Source: a virus. Taken from it: 34,547 nucleotides of DNA. The position numbers were made by a program, and so were the translations under genes. Below, in pieces: positions 683-30,557 of this stretch (position 1 is the stretch's first letter; every line of letters begins with the position of its first letter). The DNA is taken from IMG/VR virus record IMGVR_UViG_3300030108_003896, positions 1 through 34,547 of that record, one strand, 5' to 3'. The notes below the pieces were generated by a model, which saw nothing but the letters and a program-made list of their open reading frames with translations, did not search any database and was not told the DNA's origin.

Positions 683-695
683 GGGTTTATAACCC
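683..695. repeat. Short perfect inverted repeat over a stop codon
   Basis: GGGTT-TAT-AACCC is a 5-base inverted repeat with a 3-base loop. It spans the stop codon of the Mom-like gene and sits just upstream of the -35 box of the promoter at 647-676. There is no following T-run, so it is not a classical terminator. It could be an operator or a weak hairpin protecting the 3' end; it could also be chance. Confidence 0.3.
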
Positions 696-1235
696 ACGAC
701 AAAATATTAATTTAGGTTTTAAATCCTTTGTATTCCAAACTCTTTTGCCAGTTTTAAAAGCTCCTTTTTCATGACCAGGTATTCTTTTACATGTATAACC
801 AAAAGTAGAACCCACTAACACCCATTTATCTTTTTTATAAAGTTCAGCCGTTCTTGGTGGCTCAATAAGTGATTCGTAACCAATAACCTTGTCACCGTAT
901 TTTTGTTGCCAATCAACTCTTATTTGCTCTCTCCATGTTCTTAAAACTTCAGTAGTAAAATTTCTTATAGGGTATTTATTATCTACTTTTTCAATATGAT
1001 AAAAAATATTGTTAATAATATTATTAAGTTTTGACTTATCAATATTAAAAAATTCATTTCTACCTTTAAGATATAGAGTACTGCTTCCCCCTAATATATG
1101 GCCATATAATGTTTCGTTAAAATATATTGCATAACATATAGATCTACCCACAAAACCTTTCGGTTTAGTATAATGTTTTTTCATTGATGCTTTTAAGTAT
1201 TTATTATTTTTAGGTATGGTAATGAGGCTGATCAA
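687..1235 (-). CDS. Mom/DUF4338-like protein, putative DNA base-modifying acyltransferase-like enzyme
   Basis: A 182-residue protein with a layout I associate with phage Mom-like and DUF4338-like proteins: a conserved HY near residues 21-22, a strand pair with an Ile-Leu-Gly-Gly turn (about 44-52), a WREQIRVDW helix (101-109), the block ESLIEPPRTAELYKKDKW (121-138), GYTCKR (146-151) and a C-terminal KRVWNTKDLKPKLIFCR. Mu Mom is a GNAT-fold enzyme that modifies adenine and protects phage DNA from host restriction. A similar role is inferred here, not shown. The reading frame opens with TTG at 1235, directly after the stop of the upstream gene. An ATG start at codon 18 would remove the region before HY, so TTG is preferred. 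It could instead be a DUF4338 protein of unknown activity. Confidence 0.5.
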   Translation of the reverse strand: MISLITIPKNNKYLKASMKKHYTKPKGFVGRSICYAIYFNETLYGHILGGSSTLYLKGRNEFFNIDKSKLNNIINNIFYHIEKVDNKYPIRNFTTEVLRTWREQIRVDWQQKYGDKVIGYESLIEPPRTAELYKKDKWVLVGSTFGYTCKRIPGHEKGAFKTGKRVWNTKDLKPKLIFCRGL

Positions 1236-1238
1236 AAA

Positions 1239-1991
1239 CTACATCCATTTTTTTCTATTCCAAGAAAATTTTTTATATTTATTCCACAATTTTGTAAAAT
1301 AAGAATTTATAAATTGCCAATCGATTTTATGCTTTACTACACTGTGTTGCCATGATTCTCTTTTAAACGGTATTATCTGCACTAAAGGTATACCAGATTC
1401 AAAGACTTTATTAAATTTATTATATTTATCACCATTTATTAATACGGGAAAATTAATCTTATCATTGAAAGTATCTGTATCAACAATAGCAGAGATTGCA
1501 TAAAAATAATCATTTTGATTTAATACAGGCGACATAAAAAGACATGAGTAACCCGGTGGTGTTCTAATTGTCCAGGGGTTCAATATTTTAAGAATAGGTA
1601 AATTTTTATTTTTTTTTGCGATAAATGAATCTTCACCACCAACTTGTTCTATAGTATGAGCTTCTACCATTCCATAATTTATGTTTAAAGAGTTACAATA
1701 TTCTTTTGTGCCTCTATGGTTATCAGCACTAAATTTACAAAAAAGATCATATTTTTTTATTATGTCGTTATATTTGTTAAAATCTAAATTTATATCTATT
1801 GGAAGAGGGATAATGTAACCAGCACTTATACCATCCAAAAAAGGCATGCACCCTTTTATGTTGGGTCTTTTTAAATCATGCTCCTCTATTTTTTTGTACC
1901 ACTCTGGTAAAAAATATTTAGCGGGTCTTGGTTGAATATGTTTTATCTTATATAAATCAGGATGTGCACTAAACTCAATTAATTTAGACAT
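1239..1991 (-). CDS. DUF6065-like phage protein, 250 aa
   Basis: A 250-residue protein with motifs I recall from a family widespread in marine phages and probably classed as DUF6065: PAKYFLPEWYKK near the N-terminus (about 23-34), IKGCMPFLDGISAGYIIPLP (about 45-64) and NPWTIRTPPGYSCLFMSP (about 138-155). It is rich in aromatic residues and prolines, with no signal peptide or membrane segment. No catalytic motif is recognised and the family's activity is unknown to me. It lies four bases upstream of the Mom-like gene, whose TTG start follows its TAG, so the two are probably co-translated and may be functionally linked. Confidence 0.6.
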   Translation of the reverse strand: MSKLIEFSAHPDLYKIKHIQPRPAKYFLPEWYKKIEEHDLKRPNIKGCMPFLDGISAGYIIPLPIDINLDFNKYNDIIKKYDLFCKFSADNHRGTKEYCNSLNINYGMVEAHTIEQVGGEDSFIAKKNKNLPILKILNPWTIRTPPGYSCLFMSPVLNQNDYFYAISAIVDTDTFNDKINFPVLINGDKYNKFNKVFESGIPLVQIIPFKRESWQHSVVKHKIDWQFINSYFTKLWNKYKKFSWNRKKWM

Positions 1992-1994
1992 TAT

Positions 1995-2300
1995 TTAATG
2001 TATAGTTTTAGATATCTTTAACTTTTTTACTTCCTTAGGAGTTATACCCATTGCCCTTACTTGCATTGCTTTAGCACTACAATTTTCTATTTGTCTAACT
2101 AAATCCATGGTCTTATCTTGTGGAGCGTGTTTGAACTTATTCATCCATAACCAGTTCCAGAAGTTATGTAGGAATCTATTGTTCCATTTTTTATTTTCAG
2201 TGTTCTCTACTTTTTCTACTTCATATTCAAATGATAATATTTTTCTAGACTCTGGACTTAGTGCCATATAAATTCTGTATGCTTTTCTATTATTTTTCAT
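1995..2300 (-). CDS. Hypothetical protein, 101 aa
   Basis: A 101-residue protein of unknown function. It is rich in Asn, Lys and Trp: there is a central tryptophan-rich segment (WNNRFLHNFWNWLWMNKF, about 39-56) and a lysine-rich C-terminus. The central segment might associate with a membrane surface, but it contains too many polar residues for a normal membrane span. Its start overlaps the end of the oxygenase gene at 2290-2835 by 11 bases and its stop precedes the DUF6065-like start by three bases, so it belongs to the same leftward operon. Confidence 0.55.
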   Translation of the reverse strand: MKNNRKAYRIYMALSPESRKILSFEYEVEKVENTENKKWNNRFLHNFWNWLWMNKFKHAPQDKTMDLVRQIENCSAKAMQVRAMGITPKEVKKLKISKTIH

Positions 2301-2835
2301 TATCTATCTCCCTTGAATCTTTCTCAAAATAATTAAAATTTATTATCCATCTAAAATCTGAATTGTTGGACACCACACCTCTATGAAGCAAATCAGAATC
2401 AAAAATCACTATTTTGTTTTCCTCTGCTTGCACAAAAATACATTCATTATCTACTTCAATGTCTGTACCTCCATCACAAGTATTTAAATACAATATGGCT
2501 GTTTTGTTTTTTGTAGGATGATCGGTATGAAAAGCAGAGCCTCTGTTACCTAGAAAAAATACGCTCGGTGTTAGATTAGCTCTAACTTCTATAACGCTTT
2601 TTGCATTTAATTTATCTAAAATAGGTAAGATCCAATCTCTAGAATATGGGCTTGTTGCAGTATGATTATTATAAAAAGAATGAGTAAAATAACCCAACTC
2701 TAATTTATCTTTTGTAAAAACTTGTCTCTTTCTTCTGTACCAAGGAAATTCAAGATTAAGTATATTACCTTTAAGGTTCTCAAAAAAGTTTGGTTCTAAA
2801 AAATTTTTTATTATTTTAAATTTATTATTTGTCAT
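2290..2835 (-). CDS. 2-oxoglutarate/Fe(II)-dependent oxygenase (prolyl-hydroxylase-like)
   Basis: A 181-residue protein with the double-stranded beta-helix signature of 2OG/Fe(II) dioxygenases: H103-x-D105 in GSAFHTDHPT, then H151 in LLHRGV as the distal iron ligand, and R162 in FRWIINFNYF, placed to bind 2-oxoglutarate. These enzymes couple decarboxylation of 2-oxoglutarate to hydroxylation of a substrate. The length is normal for small phage members. The substrate is unknown; protein side chains, DNA bases or small molecules are possible. The gene start overlaps the last codons of a 33-residue membrane micro-protein, indicating translational coupling. Confidence 0.85.
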   Translation of the reverse strand: MTNNKFKIIKNFLEPNFFENLKGNILNLEFPWYRRKRQVFTKDKLELGYFTHSFYNNHTATSPYSRDWILPILDKLNAKSVIEVRANLTPSVFFLGNRGSAFHTDHPTKNKTAILYLNTCDGGTDIEVDNECIFVQAEENKIVIFDSDLLHRGVVSNNSDFRWIINFNYFEKDSREIDNEK

Positions 2836-2926
2836 TCTTAATCGTCTCTTTATTCCACATTATCAACATAAATGTTATTACTCCATAAATCAAACCAATT
2901 AATAAGATACTTAGTAAAAATGTCAT
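2825..2926 (-). CDS. 33-aa single-span membrane micro-protein
   Basis: A very short frame starting at the ATG at 2926 and reading MTFLLSILLIGLIYGVITFM, then LIMWNKETIKNDK, and ending in TAA at 2825. Residues 2-24 form one hydrophobic span; the tail is charged. The start overlaps the stop of the upstream micro-gene (ATGA at 2926-2923), and its 3' end overlaps the oxygenase start by 11 bases. This tight coupling on both sides supports it as a real gene. It may be a holin or antiholin-like protein or a small membrane regulator. Function unknown. Confidence 0.6.
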   Translation of the reverse strand: MTFLLSILLIGLIYGVITFMLIMWNKETIKNDK

Positions 2927-3021
2927 TCAATGTTATTTATAATATAATACGCAATAGTTAAACCAATTAATAAACAAATCATGTTGTAAGCAAACATACC
3001 TAAACCAAAAGTGGCACTCAT
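2923..3021 (-). CDS. 32-aa single-span membrane micro-protein
   Basis: A very short frame starting at the ATG at 3021 and reading MSATFGLGMFAYNMICLLIG, then LTIAYYIINNIE, ending in TGA at 2923. Most of the protein is one hydrophobic segment. Its ATG overlaps the TGA of the oxygenase gene at 3018-3620, and its TGA overlaps the ATG of the next micro-gene, so three genes are linked by ATGA junctions. It shares LLIGL and the DNA string ttattaattggttt (minus strand) with its neighbour, suggesting a duplication. Function unknown. Confidence 0.6.
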   Translation of the reverse strand: MSATFGLGMFAYNMICLLIGLTIAYYIINNIE

Positions 3022-3620
3022 TGTCCTGCTCCATCATCCATTCTTAAAAAACAATTTATACTGTAACGTGAGCCTTTTGTTATTGGCTCTGTACCATGAA
3101 TCCAAATAGGCTCTGCAGGAAAAATCATTGCCTCACCAGCAGATAATTTAACCCTCTCCTTACCGCCAAAGAATCTAAATTCACCTCCCTCATAATTATC
3201 GTTAAGATTTATTGTTAAAGAACCTCTAATATATTCATCAATGTCGGAGTGATCTTTAATGTGTTGTCCAACATTATATTTCAATATTCTTATGTTTCTA
3301 GTATTTGTGAAAAAAACATTTTTAAAATTTGGACATAAAGTATTACGAATAAAAACTTCATAATTAGCTACAACTTTTCTAATGTAGTTTACTATGATTT
3401 CATAAGGGCCTTGGAAACCCATGTTATCCTTGTATTTAGAAATGTTTAAGCAATTAAAATTATCTGTTATTACTTTATCTTCGTTAAACTTATAACTCTC
3501 TTCTGATTCAGTCATATGCTTTTTTTCTTCATAAAATTGTATTAACTTTTTACACACATCGTCATTGACTAAACCTTTTAAATGATACTTTTGATCTATT
3601 ATTTTATGATTATAACTCAC
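3018..3620 (-). CDS. 2-oxoglutarate/Fe(II)-dependent oxygenase (P4H/PiuC-like)
   Basis: A 200-residue dioxygenase with the full signature: H124-x-D126 in IKDHSDID, the GG-E-F strand NDNYEGGEFRFF (141-152), H175 in WIHGTEP and R185 in GSRYSINCFL. The layout resembles prolyl 4-hydroxylase and PiuC-type proteins, which hydroxylate protein or small-molecule substrates; the actual substrate is unknown. Translation begins at a GTG at 3620 that overlaps the TGA of the upstream gene. Downstream it is coupled to two membrane micro-proteins. It is only distantly similar to the other oxygenases of the window, so recent duplication is unlikely. Confidence 0.87.
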   Translation of the reverse strand: MSYNHKIIDQKYHLKGLVNDDVCKKLIQFYEEKKHMTESEESYKFNEDKVITDNFNCLNISKYKDNMGFQGPYEIIVNYIRKVVANYEVFIRNTLCPNFKNVFFTNTRNIRILKYNVGQHIKDHSDIDEYIRGSLTINLNDNYEGGEFRFFGGKERVKLSAGEAMIFPAEPIWIHGTEPITKGSRYSINCFLRMDDGAGQ

Positions 3621-5190: not shown

Positions 5191-5369
5191 GTCCTGAAAA
5201 AATAAGGTTGTTGAAGGAACTTCAAGAACTTGAAAACAAGTGGTCAACAAGTTTTATGACTAATGGTCTATGTACTGTTGATATGCTTAAAACGGAGAGA
5301 GATATTAGATCCAAAAGAAATGCGATCAAATATCAAGATGTACAAGAAAACTTAGCTATAGCTGGCTAA
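5187..5369 (+). CDS. Hypothetical helical protein, 60 aa
   Basis: A 60-residue protein, predicted largely helical: KIRLLKELQELENKW at the N-terminus and MLKTERDIRSKRNAIKYQDV later, together suggesting a helical hairpin. It ends the plus-strand operon. Its TAA at 5367-5369 overlaps the stop of the convergent homing-endonuclease gene, with no terminator between them. Function unknown. Confidence 0.5.
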   Translation: MSPEKIRLLKELQELENKWSTSFMTNGLCTVDMLKTERDIRSKRNAIKYQDVQENLAIAG

Positions 5370-5797
5370 CTTTTCTTAATATTTAAAAAAGGAAACTTTT
5401 TACTTAGGGTATCTTTCGGCTTTTTAAACTCATAGTGATTTATAATTTTTAACAGCTTTTCTCTTTTGGATACAGCATAGGGTAAAAATAGTTTTGCCAA
5501 ATGTAAAGCTTTTTGATGAGAACATCTCCATCTCCATTGATCTTTCTTACCCATAGATCCTTTACTTACACCTTTAAAATAGATTGAACCAACTCCAACA
5601 ATATCATAAAAATTTTTTATACAATCTAAATCTGTCATTGCTATCTCCATTGCAATGTTCCATTTTAAATATGTTTTTTTATTTTGGCTTTTACGGTGAT
5701 ACTGAGCATAATTAACATTACCCTCACCATCAAATAAACCTGCTGCATATCCAATTAAATCTTGATTATTATTAGGAAGATTTTTTTTATTTAGCAT
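5366..5797 (-). CDS. LAGLIDADG-type homing endonuclease (single motif)
   Basis: A 143-residue protein with one LAGLIDADG-type motif, IGYAAGLFDGEGNV (residues 15-28), where the acidic residues of the DGEG part would hold the catalytic metal. One motif and this length fit an enzyme that acts as a homodimer on a near-palindromic target. Basic residues are plentiful. The start chosen is the ATG at 5797, which overlaps the last 11 bases of the polymerase gene; an upstream ATG at 5827 would add ten residues read out of the polymerase gene. The gene stands free directly behind the polymerase gene, so its likely target lies in or near that gene in phages lacking it. It is convergent with the plus-strand operon. 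Confidence 0.8.
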   Translation of the reverse strand: MLNKKNLPNNNQDLIGYAAGLFDGEGNVNYAQYHRKSQNKKTYLKWNIAMEIAMTDLDCIKNFYDIVGVGSIYFKGVSKGSMGKKDQWRWRCSHQKALHLAKLFLPYAVSKREKLLKIINHYEFKKPKDTLSKKFPFLNIKKS

Positions 5798-7661
5798 CAC
5801 CCCAACTTTCTCCAAGGCCATATTCAACTACACTTGGAACTTTAAACTGAATTGCGTTTTGCATTTTCTTTTGTATTTGTTTTGCATGTTTTTCGTCCTT
5901 AACATTGAAACACAACTCATCATGTATCTGAAGTATTGGTAAGTGGCCGTCTTCATAACAATCTAACATAGACTGCTTCGTTTGATCTGCCGAAGACCCT
6001 TGTATTAATCTATTTAAAGCTTTGTAAGTAAATGCTCTTTTAATATTATCTTTTCCATATTTGGCCACAGCATCCTCATATTTTTCTGCTACATGTAAAC
6101 CAAAGTCTCTTGTCTCCCACATATCAAATCTACATTTTCTACCTTTTTTAGTTCTTATTACACCTTTTTCATCAGCTGCATATTTACATCTGTCTGATAA
6201 TTTTTTTACAAAAGGAACCTTTTTATTGTATTTAATAATCAATTCATTCGCTTCATCTTTTGAAACACCTAATGATATAGCTAGTTTTTGTTTCCCCATA
6301 CCATACATCAAACCCAATCCTATTGTTTTAGCTTGTGTTCTTTCAATACCTACTAAGTCAGCAACTGTTTGGTGAAAGTCTGCCTGACTGTTTTGATATG
6401 CTTGAACAAGTTCATTAGAACCCTCATAACCCTCCCCTATTGAGGCTGCATAGTGCACTGTCATACGAGGTTCTTGTTGAGAGTAATCAAAACTACCCCA
6501 CTTATAACCTTCCTCAGGTATGAATAGACTCCTTATTTTGGGACCAAAGTCTTTATTTCTTGCAGGGACTTGTTGTAAATTAGGATTAGACATTGACAAT
6601 CTTCCAGATACAGTTCCACCATTATCTCCTCTTAGTTGATTTATTTCTCCATGTATTCTGCCGTTGACCTGGTATTTCATAATAGAGGATAGAAAAGTTC
6701 CATGAAATTTATTTATCTCTCTTGCACTTACAATAAGTTGTGCTATTTTGTTTTTATTATTAATCAACCAATTTTGGGTAAAGGAAGGTTCTTTTGTTTT
6801 TTCGGTACGTGGGTAATCTAGCTTCAATTTGTCAAAAGCTTTGGCAATCTGGCGTGATGCCCAGATGTCTACTTCTATTCCTGATTCTTTTTTTATGGCC
6901 TGCAATAGTTCTTGTTCTTGGTTCTTCATTTCTTTTTGTAATGCTTCAGCTTTTTCCACTTGTACTCTCACACCTCGCTGACGCATCTTTATTAATATCG
7001 GAAGCAGTTGCTGCTCCATCTCCCAAACAGTAGTTAAACTTTGTGTTGCAATTTCTTGTTTAAATCTTTGCCAAAGTTTTAATGTCAACTCCGCATCTTG
7101 TTCTGCATAGTATCCAACATGTTCTGCTGGCAATTTCCACATCTCAGCTTTAGGATCTATACCGTGAGCGGCTGCAGCTTCTCTAAGTTCTGTCTCTGCT
7201 TTTATTTCATTTAAGTAATCGACTGATAAAGCGTTTAGAGAATATGAAAACCTATTCTCATCTATTAATGCTGCCGCTATCATTGTATCTACAATAGGTC
7301 CGTGAACCGGGATACCGGATGCTTCTAACCAACCCACATCATATTGAGCATTGTGAAATATTTTAGTGCATGGAAGAGCACATATGTCTTTCATATATTT
7401 TTTAACTTGTTCAGGTATCATGTTACCACCACCAAGATGGCCAAAGGGAAAATACCCTTTCCAACCTTCAACAGCCACTGCAAAACCTACAATCTCTCCC
7501 TTACCTAAAGCCCAACCAGCTCCTAGTTTTTCATTAATACCATCATCTCTGGTTTCTAAGTCAATTGCTATTTCGTTATATTGAGATAAATCTTTATATT
7601 CTATTGGTGTATTCCACATTGATTTTTTAAAAGTTAACGTCAATTGTAGTCCATTACTCAT
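5787..7661 (-). CDS. polA: Family A DNA polymerase with 3'-5' exonuclease domain
   Basis: A 624-residue replicative polymerase. The N-terminal DnaQ-like proofreading domain shows D34-x-E36 (IAIDLET), N104 and D108 (FHNAQYDVG) and Y185-x3-D189 (YAEQD). The polymerase domain shows motif A FDYSQQEPRM with D392, motif B RTQAKTIGLGLMYG (441-454) and motif C QIHDEL with D581. There is no 5' nuclease domain, as in T7-like phage enzymes. The residue matching E. coli Pol I Phe762 is Leu449. Motif A reads SQQEPR where SQIELR is usual. The start ATG overlaps the stop of the oxygenase gene upstream. It ends a run that includes helicase, primase and SSB-like genes and is followed by a homing endonuclease. 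Confidence 0.97.
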   Translation of the reverse strand: MSNGLQLTLTFKKSMWNTPIEYKDLSQYNEIAIDLETRDDGINEKLGAGWALGKGEIVGFAVAVEGWKGYFPFGHLGGGNMIPEQVKKYMKDICALPCTKIFHNAQYDVGWLEASGIPVHGPIVDTMIAAALIDENRFSYSLNALSVDYLNEIKAETELREAAAAHGIDPKAEMWKLPAEHVGYYAEQDAELTLKLWQRFKQEIATQSLTTVWEMEQQLLPILIKMRQRGVRVQVEKAEALQKEMKNQEQELLQAIKKESGIEVDIWASRQIAKAFDKLKLDYPRTEKTKEPSFTQNWLINNKNKIAQLIVSAREINKFHGTFLSSIMKYQVNGRIHGEINQLRGDNGGTVSGRLSMSNPNLQQVPARNKDFGPKIRSLFIPEEGYKWGSFDYSQQEPRMTVHYAASIGEGYEGSNELVQAYQNSQADFHQTVADLVGIERTQAKTIGLGLMYGMGKQKLAISLGVSKDEANELIIKYNKKVPFVKKLSDRCKYAADEKGVIRTKKGRKCRFDMWETRDFGLHVAEKYEDAVAKYGKDNIKRAFTYKALNRLIQGSSADQTKQSMLDCYEDGHLPILQIHDELCFNVKDEKHAKQIQKKMQNAIQFKVPSVVEYGLGESWGDAK

Positions 7662-8527: not shown

Positions 8528-10160
8528 TTTTCTCCTGCACATAAATTAAATAATCTTGTCCAATAGGATAATTAAACTTATAACTAGATCTCAACAAATG
8601 TAAAGTTTTTCTTGCTCTAGTTGCACCAGTATACCAAACCTTTCTTTCATCACTTTTATCACTCTTATTTTTGTTTTCATAATCTGATGGGTAATTACCT
8701 TTACCATACAACACTACATGATTCGCTTCTCCACCTTTAACTGAGTGTATTGTATCTATGGTTATAAGAGGATCTTTATCTAATTCTTTTTGACCATATC
8801 TTCTAAGTAATCTTATGAAGTGCCTTACTTGTCTAGGTTTAAAATTTCTTCTTAATATCCAAAACCAAGGTTTAGTTTTTTGACTATCTTCTAAAGCAAG
8901 ACCACACCACTCTTTTAAATCTTGAAAATTGTATTCTTTAAAATCAGGTTGTGCCCTCCAAAATTTATCTAATCTATAAGCAGGATCTTCTAGCTCTCTT
9001 ATATGTTTATACATGTTACGAGCTGCCTTCTTATCTATTTTTTTACCTTTAGTAATGGCAGTCCATGCTTTAATTGACTCCCACTGTTTTTGGTCAAAAC
9101 ATTTAGTTCCCTTATTATCTTTGTAATATAGACCTGCATCTTTAGCTAACATCCTAAGTTCATTAACAGTTTCATTTATACGTCCTAGAATATACCAATC
9201 TTCTTTAAATTTTTCGAATGGTATTTCTTTAAAAGATAAATAAGCTTTTACATATCCATCTTTGCCACCGGGTAAATATTCTTTCTCCTCACTATCATTA
9301 ATACCTCGTCTTATTATTTGTGAGAAACTATGTATGGCCTCTCCAAATCTTCTTGTTTTTCTTAATTTTACTTTTCGACCAGGAAAAAATTTTGTGAAAT
9401 ATTTTGGGTCAGCACCATTCCATTTATATATTGCCTGATCATCATCTCCTGCTAAATAAATTCTTTTTACTTTAGGAGCCATCTTATAAATTACTGACCA
9501 TTGTAATGGAGTACAATCTTGTGCTTCATCTAATATTAAAACTTTTAGCGATGGGAATGTAACTTCTTTGATAGCTCTTTCAATCATATCATCAAAGTCA
9601 ATAAATGATCTTTCTCCGCCACCAGTCTTATAATGTTCGTAAGTACTTATCTTTCTTAAAAATACAGTTAATGAATCTCTCTTATAACTTTCTTGTTTAT
9701 ATGCTTCTTCTGGAGATATTAACAAATTTCTTGCTTTGCTATAAACACCAAGAGACCAATCCTTATACATAAAATTATCATCTGCTAATCTCTTATCACT
9801 TCTTTTAATTACTTTTGTTTGTAGTGCAAAATCAATTGTGCAATCTTTTGGATCAAATACTTCTTCTGGAAAGTATCTCCTACAATAAGTATGTAAAGTT
9901 TTAAATCTAGAAAAGTCATCAGTGTTGTATTGAGGAAAAGACTCTAACGCTCTTGATACTGCAGTGTTAACTGCTTTGTTTGTAAAAGATAAATATGCAA
10001 TCTCGTTTGGCCTTATACCCTTTCTTAAATAACCTTTTAAAACTTTTTCAATCAAAGTATAAGTTTTACCTGTACCGGGCGGACCAAAGATTTTTATTGT
10101 TTTGTGATAAAGCTCCTTTAGTATTTTAAGTTCTAAACTTTCCTGTGTGGAATTCGTCAT
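8517..10160 (-). CDS. UvrD/Rep-like superfamily 1 DNA helicase
   Basis: A 547-residue SF1 helicase. It has Walker A GPPGTGKT (26-33), motif Ia-like LSFTNKAV (58-65), Walker B LDEAQD (210-215), motif III GDDDQAIYKW (238-247) and motif VI YTGATRARKTLHLL near residue 520. It is shorter than UvrD, with less of the 2B domain. It should move along single-stranded DNA 3' to 5' and act in replication or recombination, perhaps with the SNF2-type helicase and nuclease nearby. The start at 10160 has GGAG a short distance upstream and lies 35 bases inside the 3' end of the primase gene. Confidence 0.93.
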   Translation of the reverse strand: MTNSTQESLELKILKELYHKTIKIFGPPGTGKTYTLIEKVLKGYLRKGIRPNEIAYLSFTNKAVNTAVSRALESFPQYNTDDFSRFKTLHTYCRRYFPEEVFDPKDCTIDFALQTKVIKRSDKRLADDNFMYKDWSLGVYSKARNLLISPEEAYKQESYKRDSLTVFLRKISTYEHYKTGGGERSFIDFDDMIERAIKEVTFPSLKVLILDEAQDCTPLQWSVIYKMAPKVKRIYLAGDDDQAIYKWNGADPKYFTKFFPGRKVKLRKTRRFGEAIHSFSQIIRRGINDSEEKEYLPGGKDGYVKAYLSFKEIPFEKFKEDWYILGRINETVNELRMLAKDAGLYYKDNKGTKCFDQKQWESIKAWTAITKGKKIDKKAARNMYKHIRELEDPAYRLDKFWRAQPDFKEYNFQDLKEWCGLALEDSQKTKPWFWILRRNFKPRQVRHFIRLLRRYGQKELDKDPLITIDTIHSVKGGEANHVVLYGKGNYPSDYENKNKSDKSDERKVWYTGATRARKTLHLLRSSYKFNYPIGQDYLIYVQEKNDK

Positions 10161-11661
10161 CCATCTCCGATACTGTTTTCTTACTAACTTTTTTTTCTGT
10201 TTTCTTATAGTCTACAAACTTTGGCATTTCAACTGACCATACATTTTTAACACCTTCATGGTAATCAATTCTTTCACAACCTAGTAAATGCATGGCCTCA
10301 GAGGCACTTTTAAATGTTTTGTCATTACCTAAAAATTTTTCAAAAGTAATTTTTTTAAAATAACATACATTTGTTTTAGAATCTAATACTACATAGTTGT
10401 CTTGTAATTTTTCAAAGTCGTCCTCCTCAATATGACTTTCAAAAAACTTTTTAAGAAAGTTATATTTCTCTTCACCAAGTGTATCCTCAAACTTCATCTT
10501 TTCGTTTTCTACTGCTTGTCTTACTATAGTTGACATTAGCATTTCAAAGGGTGATGGACCTGTACGGGGCCTTGGTAAAGTTATCCAATATATACCGTAT
10601 CTTAATAGTTTAACTCTAAAAGATTTTTCATCCTTCATGTCCTCCGGACCAATCAAAATTTTTTCTCCTTGAAATTTAAATGAGTATTCTATTGATTTAG
10701 TGCTTCTAATAAATTCTATCTCTTCAAAGTCGTCAATTAAATCTGGCACTTGTGAACCGATACCTAGCTTTCTAAACTTACATTTATCCTTATCACATAA
10801 AGGTGTGTTGCATCTTAGGTTATAATTTTTTTTACTAACAGAATTAGCAACAGTGTTAATTACTTCTTTTTCATCTAATGGTGTTGTAAAAACTTCTTTG
10901 TTTCTCTCAAGAAGAATATTAGTGATTTCTTTTTTAGAAAGATTACCATCAGCTTTTCTCATCTCTAGAACGCCTATATTAAACAGTAAATCATTTCTAT
11001 GATTACCAGACCATTTCTCACTTATCATTTTTTGACAACAAGGTGGGTATTGTTTCCAATCGCTTTCTGGTTCGTATTCTTTAACTTTAATTTTATTTAA
11101 TTGATCTAATGATAAAGTTTTTTTCCTCACTAAATTTAAAAAAGTACCAATCATTACAGGTGTGTTTTCATTTGTGTACGCAAATTCTGTAGTCGCATTC
11201 ATATTGAAGTAAGGCATGTTCAAGCATTTATTCATAGGAAAAATTTCTTGTGCTTGAAAAAAGTCATTATTCCATTGATGTAGTTTTTTTAAAACTTCTT
11301 TAACTGGATACCAGTCATCCAAAAATAAAAATAAATGTAACCCTCCAGATTTAGATCTAGTTGGTATTAATGGTAAATTAAATTCTTTGATTATATCTAC
11401 AATTTTTTTTTGATTATAATTTTTATAATTATGTGGGTCGACATCTATGCAACCCCATTTACATAAATTGTCTTTTTCGGGTTTGATACCTATTCGTTTC
11501 TTACCCTCTAAATGTTCTTTCCAGATTTCAAGAGTAACTGGTTCGTGGACCGTGATTGTTTGGCCTACAGTCTTACCCCGTTCATCTACCTCTCCAGTTA
11601 GAGAGGTAGTGATGAACAGTTCAGAATTACCCTCAAATATTTTTAAGAGCTCCTGTTCCAT
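10126..11661 (-). CDS. AEP-superfamily primase (TOTE/PrimPol-like) with PriCT domain
   Basis: A 511-residue primase. The catalytic domain shows D73-V-D75 (CIDVDPHN), then SKSGGLHLFLF (103-113) and a later MPYFNMNATTEFAY segment like motif III of archaeo-eukaryotic-type primases. A helical PriCT-like segment follows (NHRNDLLFNIGVLEM), then three cysteines at C-x4-C-x4-C spacing (CNTPLCDKDKC), which may be part of a zinc site. The C-terminal 200 residues are not recognised and may contact the helicase or DNA. It should make primers for the family A polymerase in place of the T7 gp4-type primase-helicase, which is not in this window. It begins four bases after the SSB-like gene. Confidence 0.85.
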   Translation of the reverse strand: MEQELLKIFEGNSELFITTSLTGEVDERGKTVGQTITVHEPVTLEIWKEHLEGKKRIGIKPEKDNLCKWGCIDVDPHNYKNYNQKKIVDIIKEFNLPLIPTRSKSGGLHLFLFLDDWYPVKEVLKKLHQWNNDFFQAQEIFPMNKCLNMPYFNMNATTEFAYTNENTPVMIGTFLNLVRKKTLSLDQLNKIKVKEYEPESDWKQYPPCCQKMISEKWSGNHRNDLLFNIGVLEMRKADGNLSKKEITNILLERNKEVFTTPLDEKEVINTVANSVSKKNYNLRCNTPLCDKDKCKFRKLGIGSQVPDLIDDFEEIEFIRSTKSIEYSFKFQGEKILIGPEDMKDEKSFRVKLLRYGIYWITLPRPRTGPSPFEMLMSTIVRQAVENEKMKFEDTLGEEKYNFLKKFFESHIEEDDFEKLQDNYVVLDSKTNVCYFKKITFEKFLGNDKTFKSASEAMHLLGCERIDYHEGVKNVWSVEMPKFVDYKKTEKKVSKKTVSEMDDEFHTGKFRT

Positions 11662-13101: not shown

Positions 13102-14508
13102 GTGTATAAGTACAAAACAAGTCCATTTAAACATCAAAGACAAGCATTAATAGAAGGAGCTAAGCTACATAACTTCGCTTACTTTATGGAGATGGGTACG
13201 GGTAAAACAAAAGTAGCCATAGATAATACAGCTTATTTATATCAAGAAAAAAAAATAGATTTTGCCTTTGTCATAGCACCAAACTCAGTCTATCAAAACT
13301 GGAAAAAAGAGATTGATTTTCATTGTCCAGAAGAAACAAATATATACATATGGAAAGTAACCAAAGATAAAACATTTAAATTAGACCCAAATAAACTTAC
13401 ATTTATCTTAATGAATGTAGAAGCATTATCTCATGCATCTGGAAAAAAATGGCTAGAATACAAGCTATTGAAACATGGTATGAGAAGTATGGTAATTTTA
13501 GACGAAAGCACATCTATAAAAAACTTAAAAGCTTCAAGAACAAAAGCTATAATAAAACTAGGTAAATTAGCTAGATACAAAAGAATTTTAACCGGATCTC
13601 CTATAACAAAATCACCATTAGACTTATTCTCTCAATGTGCTTTTTTAGATAAAAAACTATTAGGTTATGAAAATTTTACAGTATTCAAAGCAAGATATGC
13701 TGTTATGTATAGTATTGAAAGAGGTGGCTATAATATTCAAATACCTAAGTATTACGTCAACTTAGAGGAACTTGAATATAAGTTAAAAAATTTTTCTTAT
13801 AGAGTGCGTAAAAAAGATTGTCTCGATTTACCAGAAAAAATGTATGTGCAAAGGAATATTGAGTTACCTGATGAACAAAGACTAGCATACGAAAAACTTA
13901 AGGCAACTGCTTTGATATTACTTAAAAATGATGAAGTATCTTACAATAATAAGCTAACAGAATTACTTAAACTACAACAAGTAGCGAATGGGTTTGTTAA
14001 AACAAATGATGGTAATATTGTAGATTTTAAGACAAACGCAAAACTAAAAGAATTGATGAGTATATTGGAGGAGAGTGAAGACAAGTGTATTATATGGGCT
14101 AATTATGTACATAATATAGAAATGATTAAGAAAAAACTAGGAGAGGTATATGGAAAAGATTCGGTGGTTTCGATATACGGCAAAGATTCAGTGGATATTC
14201 GTAACAAGGCTGTTGAAAGTTTTCAGTCTGATGACAGATGTCGTTTCCTCGTTGGGAACCCTACTGTTGGTGGTTATGGTCTTACCCTTACTGCTGCTAA
14301 GTATGTTATATATTTTAGTAATTCTTACAACTTGGAAGTCCGTCAACAAAGCGAGGATCGTGCTCATAGATATGGTCAAACTTCTCAAGTCACATATATA
14401 GATCTAATTGCAGCCGATACCATAGATGAAATGGTATTGCATAATTTAGAAAATAAAATTGAATTATCTGCTAAGACTCTTGGGGAACAGGTTCAGAAGT
14501 GGCTTTAG
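13102..14508 (+). CDS. SNF2-type superfamily 2 helicase/translocase
   Basis: A 468-residue SF2 protein with both RecA-like lobes. It has HQRQA (11-15, Q-motif-like), Walker A MGTGKTK (31-37), DEST for the DEAD-box position (134-137), motif III LTGSPITKSP (163-172), and in the C-terminal lobe QQSEDRAHRYGQ (motif VI). This is the arrangement of small phage SNF2/DEAD-like translocases that remodel protein-DNA complexes or branched DNA. It is the only large gene on the plus strand. It starts with GTG without a clear ribosome binding site, and its last 38 bases overlap the convergent nuclease gene. It probably works in recombination-dependent replication. Confidence 0.92.
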   Translation: MYKYKTSPFKHQRQALIEGAKLHNFAYFMEMGTGKTKVAIDNTAYLYQEKKIDFAFVIAPNSVYQNWKKEIDFHCPEETNIYIWKVTKDKTFKLDPNKLTFILMNVEALSHASGKKWLEYKLLKHGMRSMVILDESTSIKNLKASRTKAIIKLGKLARYKRILTGSPITKSPLDLFSQCAFLDKKLLGYENFTVFKARYAVMYSIERGGYNIQIPKYYVNLEELEYKLKNFSYRVRKKDCLDLPEKMYVQRNIELPDEQRLAYEKLKATALILLKNDEVSYNNKLTELLKLQQVANGFVKTNDGNIVDFKTNAKLKELMSILEESEDKCIIWANYVHNIEMIKKKLGEVYGKDSVVSIYGKDSVDIRNKAVESFQSDDRCRFLVGNPTVGGYGLTLTAAKYVIYFSNSYNLEVRQQSEDRAHRYGQTSQVTYIDLIAADTIDEMVLHNLENKIELSAKTLGEQVQKWL

Positions 14509-26367: not shown

Positions 26368-26586
26368 CTAAGTTTTATCTTTATAATCTAAGTCTGTAGA
26401 CAAAGCTTGGATTTCTTTTGGAAGTTTTTTGTTAATTTCGAATAAACAAGTAAATAAAATATTTAACGAATGTCTTAATTTTTTGACACCCAAATGAAAA
26501 GTATTATTGTTTTTTTTAATTGAGTCCATCTCTTCATCAGACATTATAATATTTACACTACCGTCTTTTTCTTGTCGTACTTTCAT
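26368..26586 (-). CDS. Hypothetical protein, 72 aa
   Basis: A 72-residue protein: a beta pair at the start (MKVRQEKDGSVNIIMSDEEM) and two helices (HLGVKKLRHSLNILFTCLFE; EIQALSTDLDY). It may be a small alpha/beta accessory protein; no motif is recognised. GGAGG about ten bases before the ATG supports the start, and the start overlaps the oxygenase stop upstream. It stands between an oxygenase and the 49-base promoter gap before the tail protein. Confidence 0.55.
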   Translation of the reverse strand: MKVRQEKDGSVNIIMSDEEMDSIKKNNNTFHLGVKKLRHSLNILFTCLFEINKKLPKEIQALSTDLDYKDKT

Positions 26587-27134
26587 AATTTTGGTCCTCC
26601 AATTAAATTTCTTTTATCTTTATGAAACTCTTTATATTTACCATTTTTATCTACATAATGCAAAAAAAACTGTGCATGCCAGTCACCCATAAAATTCTCT
26701 CTCCAGTGTGCATCTTCTATACCTAAGTAGATTACTCCATCTCCTGGTTCAAGTTCTATTGATTTATCTTCTATAAATATAGGCCATTTAGTACCGTCCC
26801 CTTGAACAAATATAGTACAACTTATTTCACAAGATTCTCTATCTTTATGTTTTTCTAATTTTGCATTATGCGTATACATTCTCCAAAAAGAATAAGTAGG
26901 CAATAATTCTAATCCTGAATTTTGTTCTATAATATTTTTTTTATTTAATAATAAAGACTCTGTTAATGGATCAGCATAATAATAAGTATCATAAATAGGT
27001 GATTGTAATAAATCAAAGGAGTCTTTATTAAATCTATGTTTCATTTTAAAATAATCTGTATAAATTTTTATTTCATTTTCATTCAAAATATTTTTTACAA
27101 CCCTATATCTAAAATCTTGTTTTATCTTGCCCAT
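26583..27134 (-). CDS. 2OG/Fe(II) oxygenase with Gln in place of the usual Arg
   Basis: A 183-residue oxygenase with H96-x-D98 in LEKHKDRESC and the typical sheet NIIEQNSGLELLPTYSFWRM. A tetrad-like EPGDGVIYLGIEDAHWREN (129-147) gives H143 as the distal ligand. The usual Arg that binds 2-oxoglutarate is not obvious: WHAQFFLHYVD (152-162) has Gln155 or His153 there. It may use another cofactor contact, or the enzyme may be altered in activity. It is overlapped by 13 bases by the upstream oxygenase, forming a tandem pair. Confidence 0.77.
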   Translation of the reverse strand: MGKIKQDFRYRVVKNILNENEIKIYTDYFKMKHRFNKDSFDLLQSPIYDTYYYADPLTESLLLNKKNIIEQNSGLELLPTYSFWRMYTHNAKLEKHKDRESCEISCTIFVQGDGTKWPIFIEDKSIELEPGDGVIYLGIEDAHWRENFMGDWHAQFFLHYVDKNGKYKEFHKDKRNLIGGPKL

Positions 27135-27691
27135 GATACTACTGAATATCTAACTCCTTTTGTAACTTTCGTAACTTCATGTGGATATAAAAAATTACTA
27201 GGCCATAGAATTAATTGATTTGGTTCCTTATCTACCTCTAAAATTTTGTTTTTTGTAACTGGGTCTCTAAATATTAATGAGCCTCCTTCGTAATCATTAT
27301 TTAATAAATAAATTAAACTATAGGTTCTATGTGCACTTTCACATGCATCTGTGTGTATTTTATAAAAATCGCCCTCTTTATATTTTAAGGCGGTAATTGT
27401 TTCAATGATTGGAAAAGATTTATTATCAAATTTTTTATTATATTCTTCTATAGCTCTTATAAATGACCACTCAAAAAAATTAGCCCAATGAACATTAGTC
27501 ATACTAGGAGATTCATTTGTAAAAAGTTGATTATCAACAGAGCGTATTTTTTTATCTTTTATAGATTGACCTTTTGAGTTTAAAACACAAGCCTCTTCAA
27601 ATTCTAATTTGTTAAGATGCATAAGAATTGCAGAGACAGCTTCTAAATTTAGAAAATTTTTTAAAACACTTATTGCATCTTTTGTTTGCAT
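27122..27691 (-). CDS. 2OG/Fe(II) oxygenase (P4H/PiuC-like)
   Basis: A 189-residue dioxygenase with a very clear signature: H113-x-D115 in YKIHTDACES, the NDYEGGSLIF strand (132-141), H171 in LYPHEVTKV, and R181 in GVRYSVVSW. The arrangement is that of PiuC and prolyl 4-hydroxylases. There is no ribosome binding site before its ATG at 27691; TTGCAA (27728-27723) and TATATA-like sequence in the 22-base gap might form a weak promoter. Directly downstream is the second oxygenase. The substrate is unknown; the position among tail genes hints at a virion or surface target. Confidence 0.88.
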   Translation of the reverse strand: MQTKDAISVLKNFLNLEAVSAILMHLNKLEFEEACVLNSKGQSIKDKKIRSVDNQLFTNESPSMTNVHWANFFEWSFIRAIEEYNKKFDNKSFPIIETITALKYKEGDFYKIHTDACESAHRTYSLIYLLNNDYEGGSLIFRDPVTKNKILEVDKEPNQLILWPSNFLYPHEVTKVTKGVRYSVVSWAR

Positions 27692-27713
27692 AAGTGGTAT
27701 CTATATAGTATTT

Positions 27714-28178
27714 TTACTTTAATTGCAAAACAGATAAATAAGTAATACCTTTTTCTTCTATAACATCTTCAATGCCTCTTGGATGAGGATAAGTCAAATC
27801 ATCAAAAGTTAAAACTTTTATTGCATCTACAAAACTTTGACATGTAGCTAAATCATTTGATTGAGGATGAGCTGCAATCCAAGATTCTTTGCCTTGTATT
27901 TCATAATTTAAAAATTCTGTAACTTCATCAGCATTAGCGTATGTTTGGCTTGGAATGTCTGATTTTGAAAGGTCAAAAGTATCAATTAAAGTATAACTGT
28001 CACCTGACCATTGGACCATTTTTTTATTTTTTCTTATTTGATCAAACTCTTCAGTAGTTATTTCAAAAACTTTATAACAGTCTACAGCAAATTTTGATTT
28101 TGCAGAATCGTCAACAGCTAGTCTAAGTTCAGCTCCTGGTATATTTTCTTTATTTGGATCGCATAATACGTATGCCAT
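27714..28178 (-). CDS. Hypothetical protein downstream of tail fibre, possible fibre chaperone
   Basis: A 154-residue acidic protein: a beta-rich beginning (MAYVLCDPNKENIPGAELRL), a helical middle (TEEFDQIRKNKKMVQWSGDS), and a C-terminal part with DDLTYPHPRGIEDVIEEKGI. It follows the tail fibre gene by 11 bases with a good AAGGAG site. Proteins in this place often assist fibre folding or assembly, but no known chaperone motif is visible, so this is inference from position only. Confidence 0.5.
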   Translation of the reverse strand: MAYVLCDPNKENIPGAELRLAVDDSAKSKFAVDCYKVFEITTEEFDQIRKNKKMVQWSGDSYTLIDTFDLSKSDIPSQTYANADEVTEFLNYEIQGKESWIAAHPQSNDLATCQSFVDAIKVLTFDDLTYPHPRGIEDVIEEKGITYLSVLQLK

Positions 28179-28189
28179 ATTTTTACTCC

Positions 28190-29413
28190 TTAACTTCCTG
28201 AATTATCCCAAAGAAATAGTCCACCATCAACACCTTGAGGTTTAGATCCTTGGCCATCACCATTTCCATAAATCGTTGTAAATTCTAATTGATCTGTTGT
28301 AAATTGAGAATGCACGGTTGTTGTTGGGGCTGCGGTAGTAGTTCCAGCAGCTCCTGTTCCGAAACTCGTAAAACTTTGAGTTCCACCTTGTCCTCCACCA
28401 ACTGAAAAATGTGGTGAAATACCCGCTGGCTGTCCTGATTGACCGTGATAAGCTCCGCCGACCGCACCACCAGTCCCTCCTGTCCAAGACGCTGAAAAAG
28501 GAGCAGAAACTGGAAATGAAAAAAATCCAGCTGGGCCAGTAGGACCGCCGCTTCTTACATCTCCTCGAGGCGCATTCCCCCCTCCTCCGCCACCGCCTAC
28601 GCCATATGCATAAATCAAAGTCGCTGTTGGAGTTGCAGTAAATGTTCCTTCACCGCCTTTGGCAGCTAATTTCAAAACATAATTACCGCCACCTGCTGAT
28701 CCTGTTGAAGCAGCAGTAAGTCTACCTTGAGCATCTACAGTGATTGAAGCTAAGGTATAACTTCCAGCTGTTACCGCAGTGTTTGCTAATTGGTCCGCAC
28801 CAACTGCATCGTCAGCAATTTTAGCTTGTGTTACCGCATCGTCTGCAAGTTTATCTGTTGTTACATTAGCATTTAAAATTCCAGCAGTTACAACTGCGTT
28901 ATCAGAAATTTGTGCTGCTCTAATTGCATCATCTGCAATTTTAGCATTTGTAACAGCATCGTCTGCTATCTGAGCAGTTCCGATCGATCCACCTAAAGTA
29001 TCTAACGACACTTCATTAAGATTTGTTCCATCAGCATATGCTGCATAAATTTTTTGTGCGTCAGGGCTAAAGCCTGTTCCTGAGGCAGTTTTGATTGTAA
29101 GGTTTGTTGGGTTTGTAACCCCTGTTACATCAAAAATATAAAATTTTTCAATTGAATCAGGTATAGTACAAATAGTGCCAGACGTTGCTGTGATAGTTGC
29201 AAATTTTATTACTAAATTTCTTGCGTTTGATAAAGCACCGTCAGACATAACAAGTGCAGTAGTTCCCCCAGCAGATAGCGTTACTTGCTCAAAACCAGCT
29301 ATCGCTTGTTGTACTAAGTTTAAATTTGTATTAGTTTTATCTCCCCATGTACCAGCATTTTCACCGGTTACCATCAATTCTAGTTTAAGATCAGTTGAAT
29401 AACTTGAAGCCAT
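28190..29413 (-). CDS. Tail or head fibre protein with decapeptide repeats and Gly-rich tip
   Basis: A 407-residue fibre. The N-terminal MVTGENAGTWGDKTNTNLN (14-32) is a common phage fibre attachment sequence, followed by a beta domain (to about 140), seven decapeptide repeats (145-214, such as TNAKIADDAI) that should form a fibrous trimer, and a Gly-rich C-terminal receptor-facing domain (GVGGGGGGGNAPRGDVRSGG, 271-290, and later GGGQGGTQSF). The Gly-rich part resembles adhesin tips. AGGAG and a good sigma70-like promoter precede the ATG. It probably carries host recognition. Confidence 0.8.
   Translation of the reverse strand: MASSYSTDLKLELMVTGENAGTWGDKTNTNLNLVQQAIAGFEQVTLSAGGTTALVMSDGALSNARNLVIKFATITATSGTICTIPDSIEKFYIFDVTGVTNPTNLTIKTASGTGFSPDAQKIYAAYADGTNLNEVSLDTLGGSIGTAQIADDAVTNAKIADDAIRAAQISDNAVVTAGILNANVTTDKLADDAVTQAKIADDAVGADQLANTAVTAGSYTLASITVDAQGRLTAASTGSAGGGNYVLKLAAKGGEGTFTATPTATLIYAYGVGGGGGGGNAPRGDVRSGGPTGPAGFFSFPVSAPFSASWTGGTGGAVGGAYHGQSGQPAGISPHFSVGGGQGGTQSFTSFGTGAAGTTTAAPTTTVHSQFTTDQLEFTTIYGNGDGQGSKPQGVDGGLFLWDNSGS
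28772..28981 (-). repeat. Seven tandem 30-bp repeats encoding decapeptides in the fibre gene
   Basis: Seven consecutive units of ten residues, for example GTAQIADDAV, TNAKIADDAI, TTDKLADDAV and TQAKIADDAV, with the pattern x-x-x-[KQ]-[IL]-[AS]-[DN]-[DN]-A-[VI]. Units three, four and seven are more diverged. The length of the array could set the fibre shaft length and may vary between relatives. Confidence 0.8.
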
Positions 29414-29438
29414 AAATTTTTTCTCCTAAATAATTTTA

Positions 29439-29467
29439 ATTATACCTTCGTCAAGCTGCTAAATCAA
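29439..29467 (-). promoter_or_regulatory. Sigma70-like promoter before the fibre gene
   Basis: On the minus strand TTGATT (29467-29462; four of six) is separated by exactly 17 bases from a perfect TATAAT (29444-29439). The message would start near 29432, leaving about 19 bases with an AGGAG site before the ATG at 29413. The -35 box lies within the 3' end of the upstream gene. It gives the fibre and downstream genes their own transcription. Confidence 0.6.
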
Positions 29468-30557
29468 CCTCTGTCCAAGTATTATTTACACCCAGGTCTA
29501 CCTCTTGCCATGGTGTTACAGCTACGTTTCCAATAGAACCAGTTGTTTGTATTCCTGTAACTGCTATATTTGCAGCACCTGTGACTGTTACAGAACCTAT
29601 GGAGCTTGATAATTGTAGTCCATCTTGACCTATAATTTGACCAGGTATTTCAGCATGTTGTCCTAATGATAAAGTACCTTGTATTCCAGTAGGTTGCTCA
29701 TTAGTGCTTTGAACTAAGTTAATATTACCTTGACTTGAAGTCATTTGTACACCAGTGACATCAACTGGTGTTTTAAGACCGGCTATAGTAGTACCCATTG
29801 AGCCTGTCAACGAACCGGCACTAGTTACCGTTACATTAGCATCAGCCTCAAATCCTAAAGTACCAATAGTAAAATCAAGTTGGTCCTCTGAAGCAAAAAC
29901 TGTTATGTCCTGATCTATTTGAATTGAAAAAGTTCCAAAAGTAGAACTTAATTGACCAGCACTTGTAACTGATACTGTTACATCTGTAAAAGCATTAGCG
30001 GCAGGGAAATTAATAGTAGAAGTTAGTTGTTGTCCCGTTGCTGCAACAGAGAATGCTTCACCCCAAGATAAATTACCCCAAGTTCGTCTACCCCAACCAA
30101 TACCTGTCAACTCCGATTCGTCAACTGTAGCTGCTCCGATACTTGAGGTAGCAACATTACCAGTTATTGGAACACCTATACCAATAGTCGTGCTACCAAC
30201 AGCCATGGACTCTAAACTACCTGTAACTTGAACGGTTACAGATATTCCTGCTGTTTCCTCTCCTAATGATGATGATAAAGATATTCCAGAAACGTCTACG
30301 GTAGCATTTGCGGTTGTTGTAACAGATGCAATGCTAAATGATGCGCTTATTCCTGTTATTGTTGGTTGAGAACCAGATAGATCACCCCATTCATTTTCAC
30401 CCCAGGTGTCTCCACCCCAACCTATTTGGATTTCGTTGTCTACTGTTATATTGCCAATACTATAGGATGCACTTATTCCTGTTAGTGTAAGTCCGACATC
30501 ACCTTGTGCTGCCCAACTACCAGCTCCCCATTCAAGTGCACCCCATGTATTCGACAT
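29451..30557 (-). CDS. Repeat virion protein with WG motifs
   Basis: A 368-residue, almost entirely beta protein. Three W-rich blocks are seen: WGALEWGAGSWA (5-16), GWGGDTWGENEWGD (46-59) and GWGRRTWGNLSWGE (154-167). Between and after them come about nine looser units of 30-45 residues of the pattern G-(I/L)-x5-S-I-G-x4-V. It is poor in lysine and rich in Thr, Ser, Gly and Val, like a long beta-helix or stack of small sandwiches on the virion surface. It sits between a small structural protein and the fibre gene; a role in the fibre base or decoration is likely but not proven. Confidence 0.65.
   Translation of the reverse strand: MSNTWGALEWGAGSWAAQGDVGLTLTGISASYSIGNITVDNEIQIGWGGDTWGENEWGDLSGSQPTITGISASFSIASVTTTANATVDVSGISLSSSLGEETAGISVTVQVTGSLESMAVGSTTIGIGVPITGNVATSSIGAATVDESELTGIGWGRRTWGNLSWGEAFSVAATGQQLTSTINFPAANAFTDVTVSVTSAGQLSSTFGTFSIQIDQDITVFASEDQLDFTIGTLGFEADANVTVTSAGSLTGSMGTTIAGLKTPVDVTGVQMTSSQGNINLVQSTNEQPTGIQGTLSLGQHAEIPGQIIGQDGLQLSSSIGSVTVTGAANIAVTGIQTTGSIGNVAVTPWQEVDLGVNNTWTEVDLAA

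Follow-up and report, generated by a model that had tools for sequence, protein, structure and literature searches.

Proteins of the DruA domain family, that is, of Pfam family PF14236 ('DruA'), which we take to be the family formerly named DUF4338, occur in defence systems and transposases. The domain has earlier been called a GNAT, and the 2024 comparative study that did so also suggested proteins as possible targets of those DUF4338 GNATs that are fused to DndF (PMC10853773); in addition, Synechococcus phage S-PRM1 encodes a DruA-like protein that belongs to the wider DruA group (PMC12774648). The second relevant system is Mom of phage Mu (Pfam PF25680), an accepted GNAT of a family characterised by covalent modification of adenine in DNA, which keeps bacteria from cutting that DNA; PDB entry 8bv8, which represents it, is described as the inactive mutant S124A. 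In the literature searched, with subscription papers on Mom mostly outside the search, chemistry for DruA/DUF4338 was not found, and neither was a paper linking DruA to Mom.

The window considered here, namely the whole 34,547-nucleotide stretch of IMG/VR virus record IMGVR_UViG_3300030108_003896, encodes a small protein (Table 1) for which profile comparison and structure prediction support assignment as a stand-alone GNAT of the DUF4338 (DruA-domain) branch, with kinship to Mom by way of DUF4338. The initial annotation had singled out two sequence blocks in this protein, ESLIEPPRTAELY (residues 121-133) and GYTCKR (residues 146-151), and both are present and conserved across 47 homologues, with E121, L123, E125, R128 and Y133 invariant and T148, C149, K150 and R151 nearly so. 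Along the whole 47-protein alignment, the invariant or nearly invariant positions comprise H21, Y22, G50, N75, N76, Y88, P89, R91, N92, W109, E121, L123, E125, R128, Y133, C149, K150, R151, G163, R165 and K175. The GTG, ATG or TTG starts of the relatives line up with the N-terminus of the 182-residue product, so that alignment runs from the first residues, and comparison with the closest relative (L048) gives a dN of 0.12 and a dS of 0.69, i.e., purifying selection. Because of this conservation, the aligned starts and a dN far below dS, the two blocks lie far outside what chance would produce, and the ORF is a real gene.

Table 1. Positions of the genes and motifs discussed, in the window unless a related locus is named.
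Feature	Position	Strand	Remarks
Phage DUF4338-type, Mom-related GNAT gene	687..1235	minus	TTG start, 182 aa
GNAT motifs (residues)	H21-Y22; R91-N92-x-x-T95; E121-S-L-I-E125; R128; Y133; C149-K-R151; G163-K-R165		
DUF6065/PHROG 7084-like protein	1239..1991	minus	ATG start, 250 aa
101-aa protein	1995..2300	minus	L048 homologue lies directly upstream of GNAT gene
2OG-Fe(II) oxygenase-like accessory gene	2290..2835	minus	phrog_274 match
2OG-Fe(II) oxygenase	3018..3620	minus	2OG-FeII_Oxy_3
Tail module of the window phage	26583-30557		
Part of tail module	27122..28178	minus	2OG oxygenase 27122-27691 and 154-aa gene 27714-28178
C5-cytosine DNA methyltransferase overlapping GNAT gene	L049 5412-6996; L050 220-1819; L051 6950-8549		Related loci

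Loci of this GNAT family were collected in two scans of viral contigs, which gave 12 and then 60 loci with several contigs common to both; these loci are related to each other, partly fragmentary and not fully independent. The window protein shares 46-81% identity with the other members (47-protein alignment; about 60 viral loci). A tblastn search of 50,697 phage records with two family members as queries returned no match, and a scan of bacterial and archaeal genomes returned a single one, on a contig of an archaeal MAG that is probably viral or contaminating; the group thus looks like a strongly conserved family of uncultivated viruses. Nothing useful on the protein came out of PHROGs, NCBIfam or PADLOC, and the phmmer matches to RNase HII and PfRh5 were weak (best E 0.004), contradicted by the GNAT model and discarded.

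The AlphaFold (AF2) model of the protein (pLDDT 80, pTM 0.75) adopts a GNAT fold; GNATs are the top PDB matches listed for it by Foldseek, and the Foldseek and VIA matches cover the whole chain. Among viral proteins, Foldseek ranks Mom of Salmonella phage FSL SP-031 first (E 6e-7), which bears out the fold proposed in the initial annotation. Against Mu Mom (8bv8), VIA-align gives a Z of 12.9 at 3.0 A over 148 residues, a score that other GNATs equal, and a GNAT fold is by itself uninformative on substrate. The canonical acyl-CoA P-loop between beta4 and alpha3 (Q/RxxGxG/A) is absent from the family, which has Y-P-x-R-N-F-T-T in its place; this stretch resembles P-R-N-x-E-S of Mom, in which QxxGxG/A is also missing.

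Kinship at the level of profiles is clearer for DUF4338 than for Mom. The PF14236 model matches nine of 13 family members (best E 1.7e-6) and reaches the window protein at E 0.0011 and 18.6 bits, below the gathering cut-off of 27 bits, whereas the Pfam Mom model PF25680, which recognises Mu Mom at 253 bits, matches none of the 13. Conversely, an HMM of the 47 members scores 54 and 42 bits with the DUF4338 domains that ISAs1 transposases carry as fusions, which is homology of the core domain. Profile-profile comparison with hhalign, in which Mom was represented by an alignment of 11 phages, yields 98.4% for the family against DUF4338, 97.2% for DUF4338 against Mom and a weak 69.5% for the family against Mom directly; a comparison with the single Mu Mom sequence was rejected as a mis-registered chance alignment. 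The proposed likeness to Mom and DUF4338 is hence upheld, with DUF4338 as the closer relative by profile. In a three-way alignment, the elements HY, RN(x)x[ST] and Gxx.Y are in register, while the acidic residue before the tyrosine (E125 here, D in DUF4338, D149 in Mom) was matched by eye across a length difference. The column of Mom Ser124 is not conserved in the family (T 20, S 14, Q 4, A 4, P 3 and V 2; n=47), where 34 of 47 members have T or S and the window protein has T95.

Compared with the named systems, the family shares with the ISAs1-fused DUF4338/DruA proteins (L122, L135) the GNAT-type core, over which the profile match extends, and ETFVD..GTCYRAANW of DUF4338/DruA corresponds to its ESLIE..TAELYKKDKW. 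In contrast to DUF4338/DruA, its members are stand-alone proteins, in most cases of 180-225 aa, that come with neither a transposase nor DruBCDE, fall below the Pfam cut-off and carry a C-terminal block of their own, CKR...GKRVW...LRPK. In L122 and L135 themselves, the DUF4338/DruA domain is N-terminal in ISAs1-family transposases and is linked by profile to phage Mom at 97%. The long defence-type DruA has no detectable profile match to the family (hhalign 0.2%), PADLOC finds Druantia in none of the 13 members and a DruB-E cluster is absent from the recurrent neighbours. Kinship to the S-PRM1 protein was likewise rejected, as gp050 matches the long defence-type DruA and is missed by the family HMM. 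With Mu Mom and Mom-like phage proteins, the family has in common the GNAT fold, HY near the N-terminus, RN before helix 3 and an acidic residue and a tyrosine in the beta5-alpha4 region; unlike Mom, it has no Pfam Mom match, is variable at the Ser124 position and offers no sequence counterpart to Mom's basic C-terminal region.

The genes beside the GNAT gene in related viruses are centred on DNA. A C5-cytosine DNA methyltransferase gene (PF00145, E 1.6e-53 in L049) overlaps it by 23 nt in the close relatives L049, L050 and L051, with a fragment in L053; in distant loci, an N6/N4 methyltransferase (L087, L101) or Dam (L102) is encoded directly beside it. Methyltransferases make up 8/107 direct neighbours as opposed to 3/360 genes more than three away (Fisher p 0.0005), an enrichment that falls to p 0.016 once the L049 clade is counted once and that links only a minority of the loci. 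Furthermore, a family-A DNA polymerase gene overlaps the GNAT gene by 4 nt in L008 and L057-L060, and the annotated Mom-like gene of Salmonella phage VSiP has the same arrangement, upstream of a DNA polymerase gene and overlapping it. The window phage also encodes a family-A DNA polymerase and a UvrD-like helicase, together with a primase with a TOTE-conflict-type AEP domain (10126-11661) and an SNF2-type helicase whose gene lies on the other strand (13102-14508); a 153-aa ORF with a GLFDGEGNV motif (5366-5827), LAGLIDADG-type homing endonuclease-like by eye, overlaps the DNA polymerase gene at the 3' end of the latter.

The adjoining methyltransferases and polymerases support, without proof, an action of the GNAT on DNA, and since they so often adjoin it, acylation of bases of phage DNA as a protection against restriction is the most likely role, and one that we consider probable. 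A rather unlikely alternative, though one to be weighed, is that the enzyme acylates a protein, such as a host defence factor, a polymerase or a phage protein, and serves counter-defence or host takeover; GNATs found by the fold search mostly act on small molecules or proteins, and the suggestion made for DndF-fused DUF4338 GNATs points the same way. However, Mom is both the closest viral fold match and the end point of the profile chain, and three classes of DNA methyltransferase (C5, N6/N4 and Dam) as well as DNA polymerases adjoin the gene. GNATs that act on tRNA, aminoacyl-tRNA or small molecules exist, but such a substrate is very unlikely here, as genes of tRNA or small-molecule metabolism were not noticed among the DNA-centred neighbours. 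Still more doubtful is a hypermodification relay, in which the upstream 2OG oxygenases (2290-3620), having replaced the methyltransferase of the relatives, would oxidise a base and the GNAT would acylate the product. The oxygenase genes, with the 101-aa and DUF6065-like genes, do occupy the stretch that holds the C5-methyltransferase in several relatives, and stand where L049-L051 have it upstream of the GNAT gene; yet they belong to the 2OG-FeII_Oxy_3 and phrog_274 groups, kin of the tail-module partners of DUF6065, and are not demonstrably TET/JBP-like, and at the other loci no such oxygenase cluster was prominent next to the GNAT gene.

The DUF6065-like gene directly upstream had been read as the possible second half of an undescribed two-gene DNA modification unit. 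Both ORFs are present as described, with 3 nt between the TAG stop of the DUF6065-like gene (1241-1239) and the TTG start of the GNAT gene (1235-1233). The protein matches PHROG 7084 over nearly its whole length (E 1e-41) and has homologues in haloviruses HF2 and HSTV-2 and on more than 200 viral contigs, from which 80 loci were kept for examination; no paper mentioning DUF6065 was found. Its AlphaFold model (pLDDT 70) lends moderate support to a dUTPase-like fold with degenerate motifs: all 50 of the PDB matches listed by VIA are dUTPases, with Z up to 9.4 and 121-134 residues aligned, and Foldseek reaches an E of only 5e-3 against them. Catalytic motifs 1-5 of dUTPases do not occur, with SAGY, TPPGYSCLF, AIVDTDTF and PLVQII as echoes, and kinship by sequence stays below significance (in-register hhalign P 0.001, probability 20%). 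Near the halovirus homologues there are genes for thymidylate synthase or ribonucleotide reductase, which would suit a nucleotide-related ancestry.

The usual place of this gene is elsewhere. In 77 of the 80 DUF6065 loci, the next gene is a member of a 2OG-Fe(II) oxygenase cluster, and two genes upstream there is, in 72 of the 80, a member of the family of the window's tail-fibre-like gene (28190-29413). These DUF6065-like and 2OG-Fe(II) oxygenase genes (L014, L136-L214; 80 loci) form a conserved tail-module set in environmental phages, possibly a cassette for the modification of virion proteins. In the window, by contrast, the DUF6065-like copy sits beside the GNAT gene, and its slot in the tail module is empty, with only 22 nt between 27691 and 27714, where relatives have it; the gene thus appears to have been relocated, or lost and newly acquired. 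L048, which is the nearest relative for the GNAT locus, keeps the same flanks (a 101-aa gene upstream, 69-aa and 99-aa genes downstream) and lacks the DUF6065-like gene. The two genes are hardly ever found at one locus: a DUF6065-like gene is found in none of about 58 GNAT family loci, some of them short, and a Mom- or DUF4338-like gene in none of the 80 DUF6065 loci. Given this missing co-occurrence in both directions, which the initial annotation itself had named as grounds against its proposal, the two-gene unit was rejected; with the usual place of DUF6065 elsewhere and L048 without it, the pair reflects local rearrangement or new acquisition, and the adjacency is incidental rather than a conserved partnership. 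Joint modification of DNA, with the DUF6065-like protein supplying or altering the group, is accordingly the least credible reading, even though one message could serve both genes and the predicted fold is that of a nucleotide hydrolase, because L048 dispenses with the gene, the two families do not meet in other loci and the constant neighbours of DUF6065 are tail genes and 2OG oxygenases.

Fold, kinship, the strong conservation around the active site and context were computed; for the substrate, the donor and the protection from restriction that base acylation by the GNAT would entail, we infer the following course. An acyl donor would be bound in a Mom-like pocket without the canonical CoA loop, a base would be flipped out of the DNA, and an acyl or aminoacyl group would be transferred to its exocyclic amine, presumably during or just after replication of the phage DNA. 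Y133 would serve as general acid and E125 would stand in for the Asp of Mom, while T95 lies where Mom has Ser124; since the Ser124 column is variable in the family, the donor or the chemistry may differ from that of Mom. Host restriction enzymes would then no longer cut the modified phage DNA. More speculatively, and with some doubt, the DUF4338/DruA-type GNATs of phages, of ISAs1 transposases and possibly of Druantia might constitute a second lineage of acyltransferases that act on DNA bases as Mom does; the window family would then protect phage DNA during its replication by installing an acylated base not described so far, at times together with a DNA methyltransferase.

A compact and conserved phage GNAT that is tied by profile to Mom would allow the chemistry of DUF4338 to be put to a direct test on a small protein. 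Should it turn out to modify DNA, the members of the DUF4338 group would seem to be DNA acyltransferases, and the counter-restriction enzymes would be joined by one of environmental phages that is seemingly absent from present isolates.
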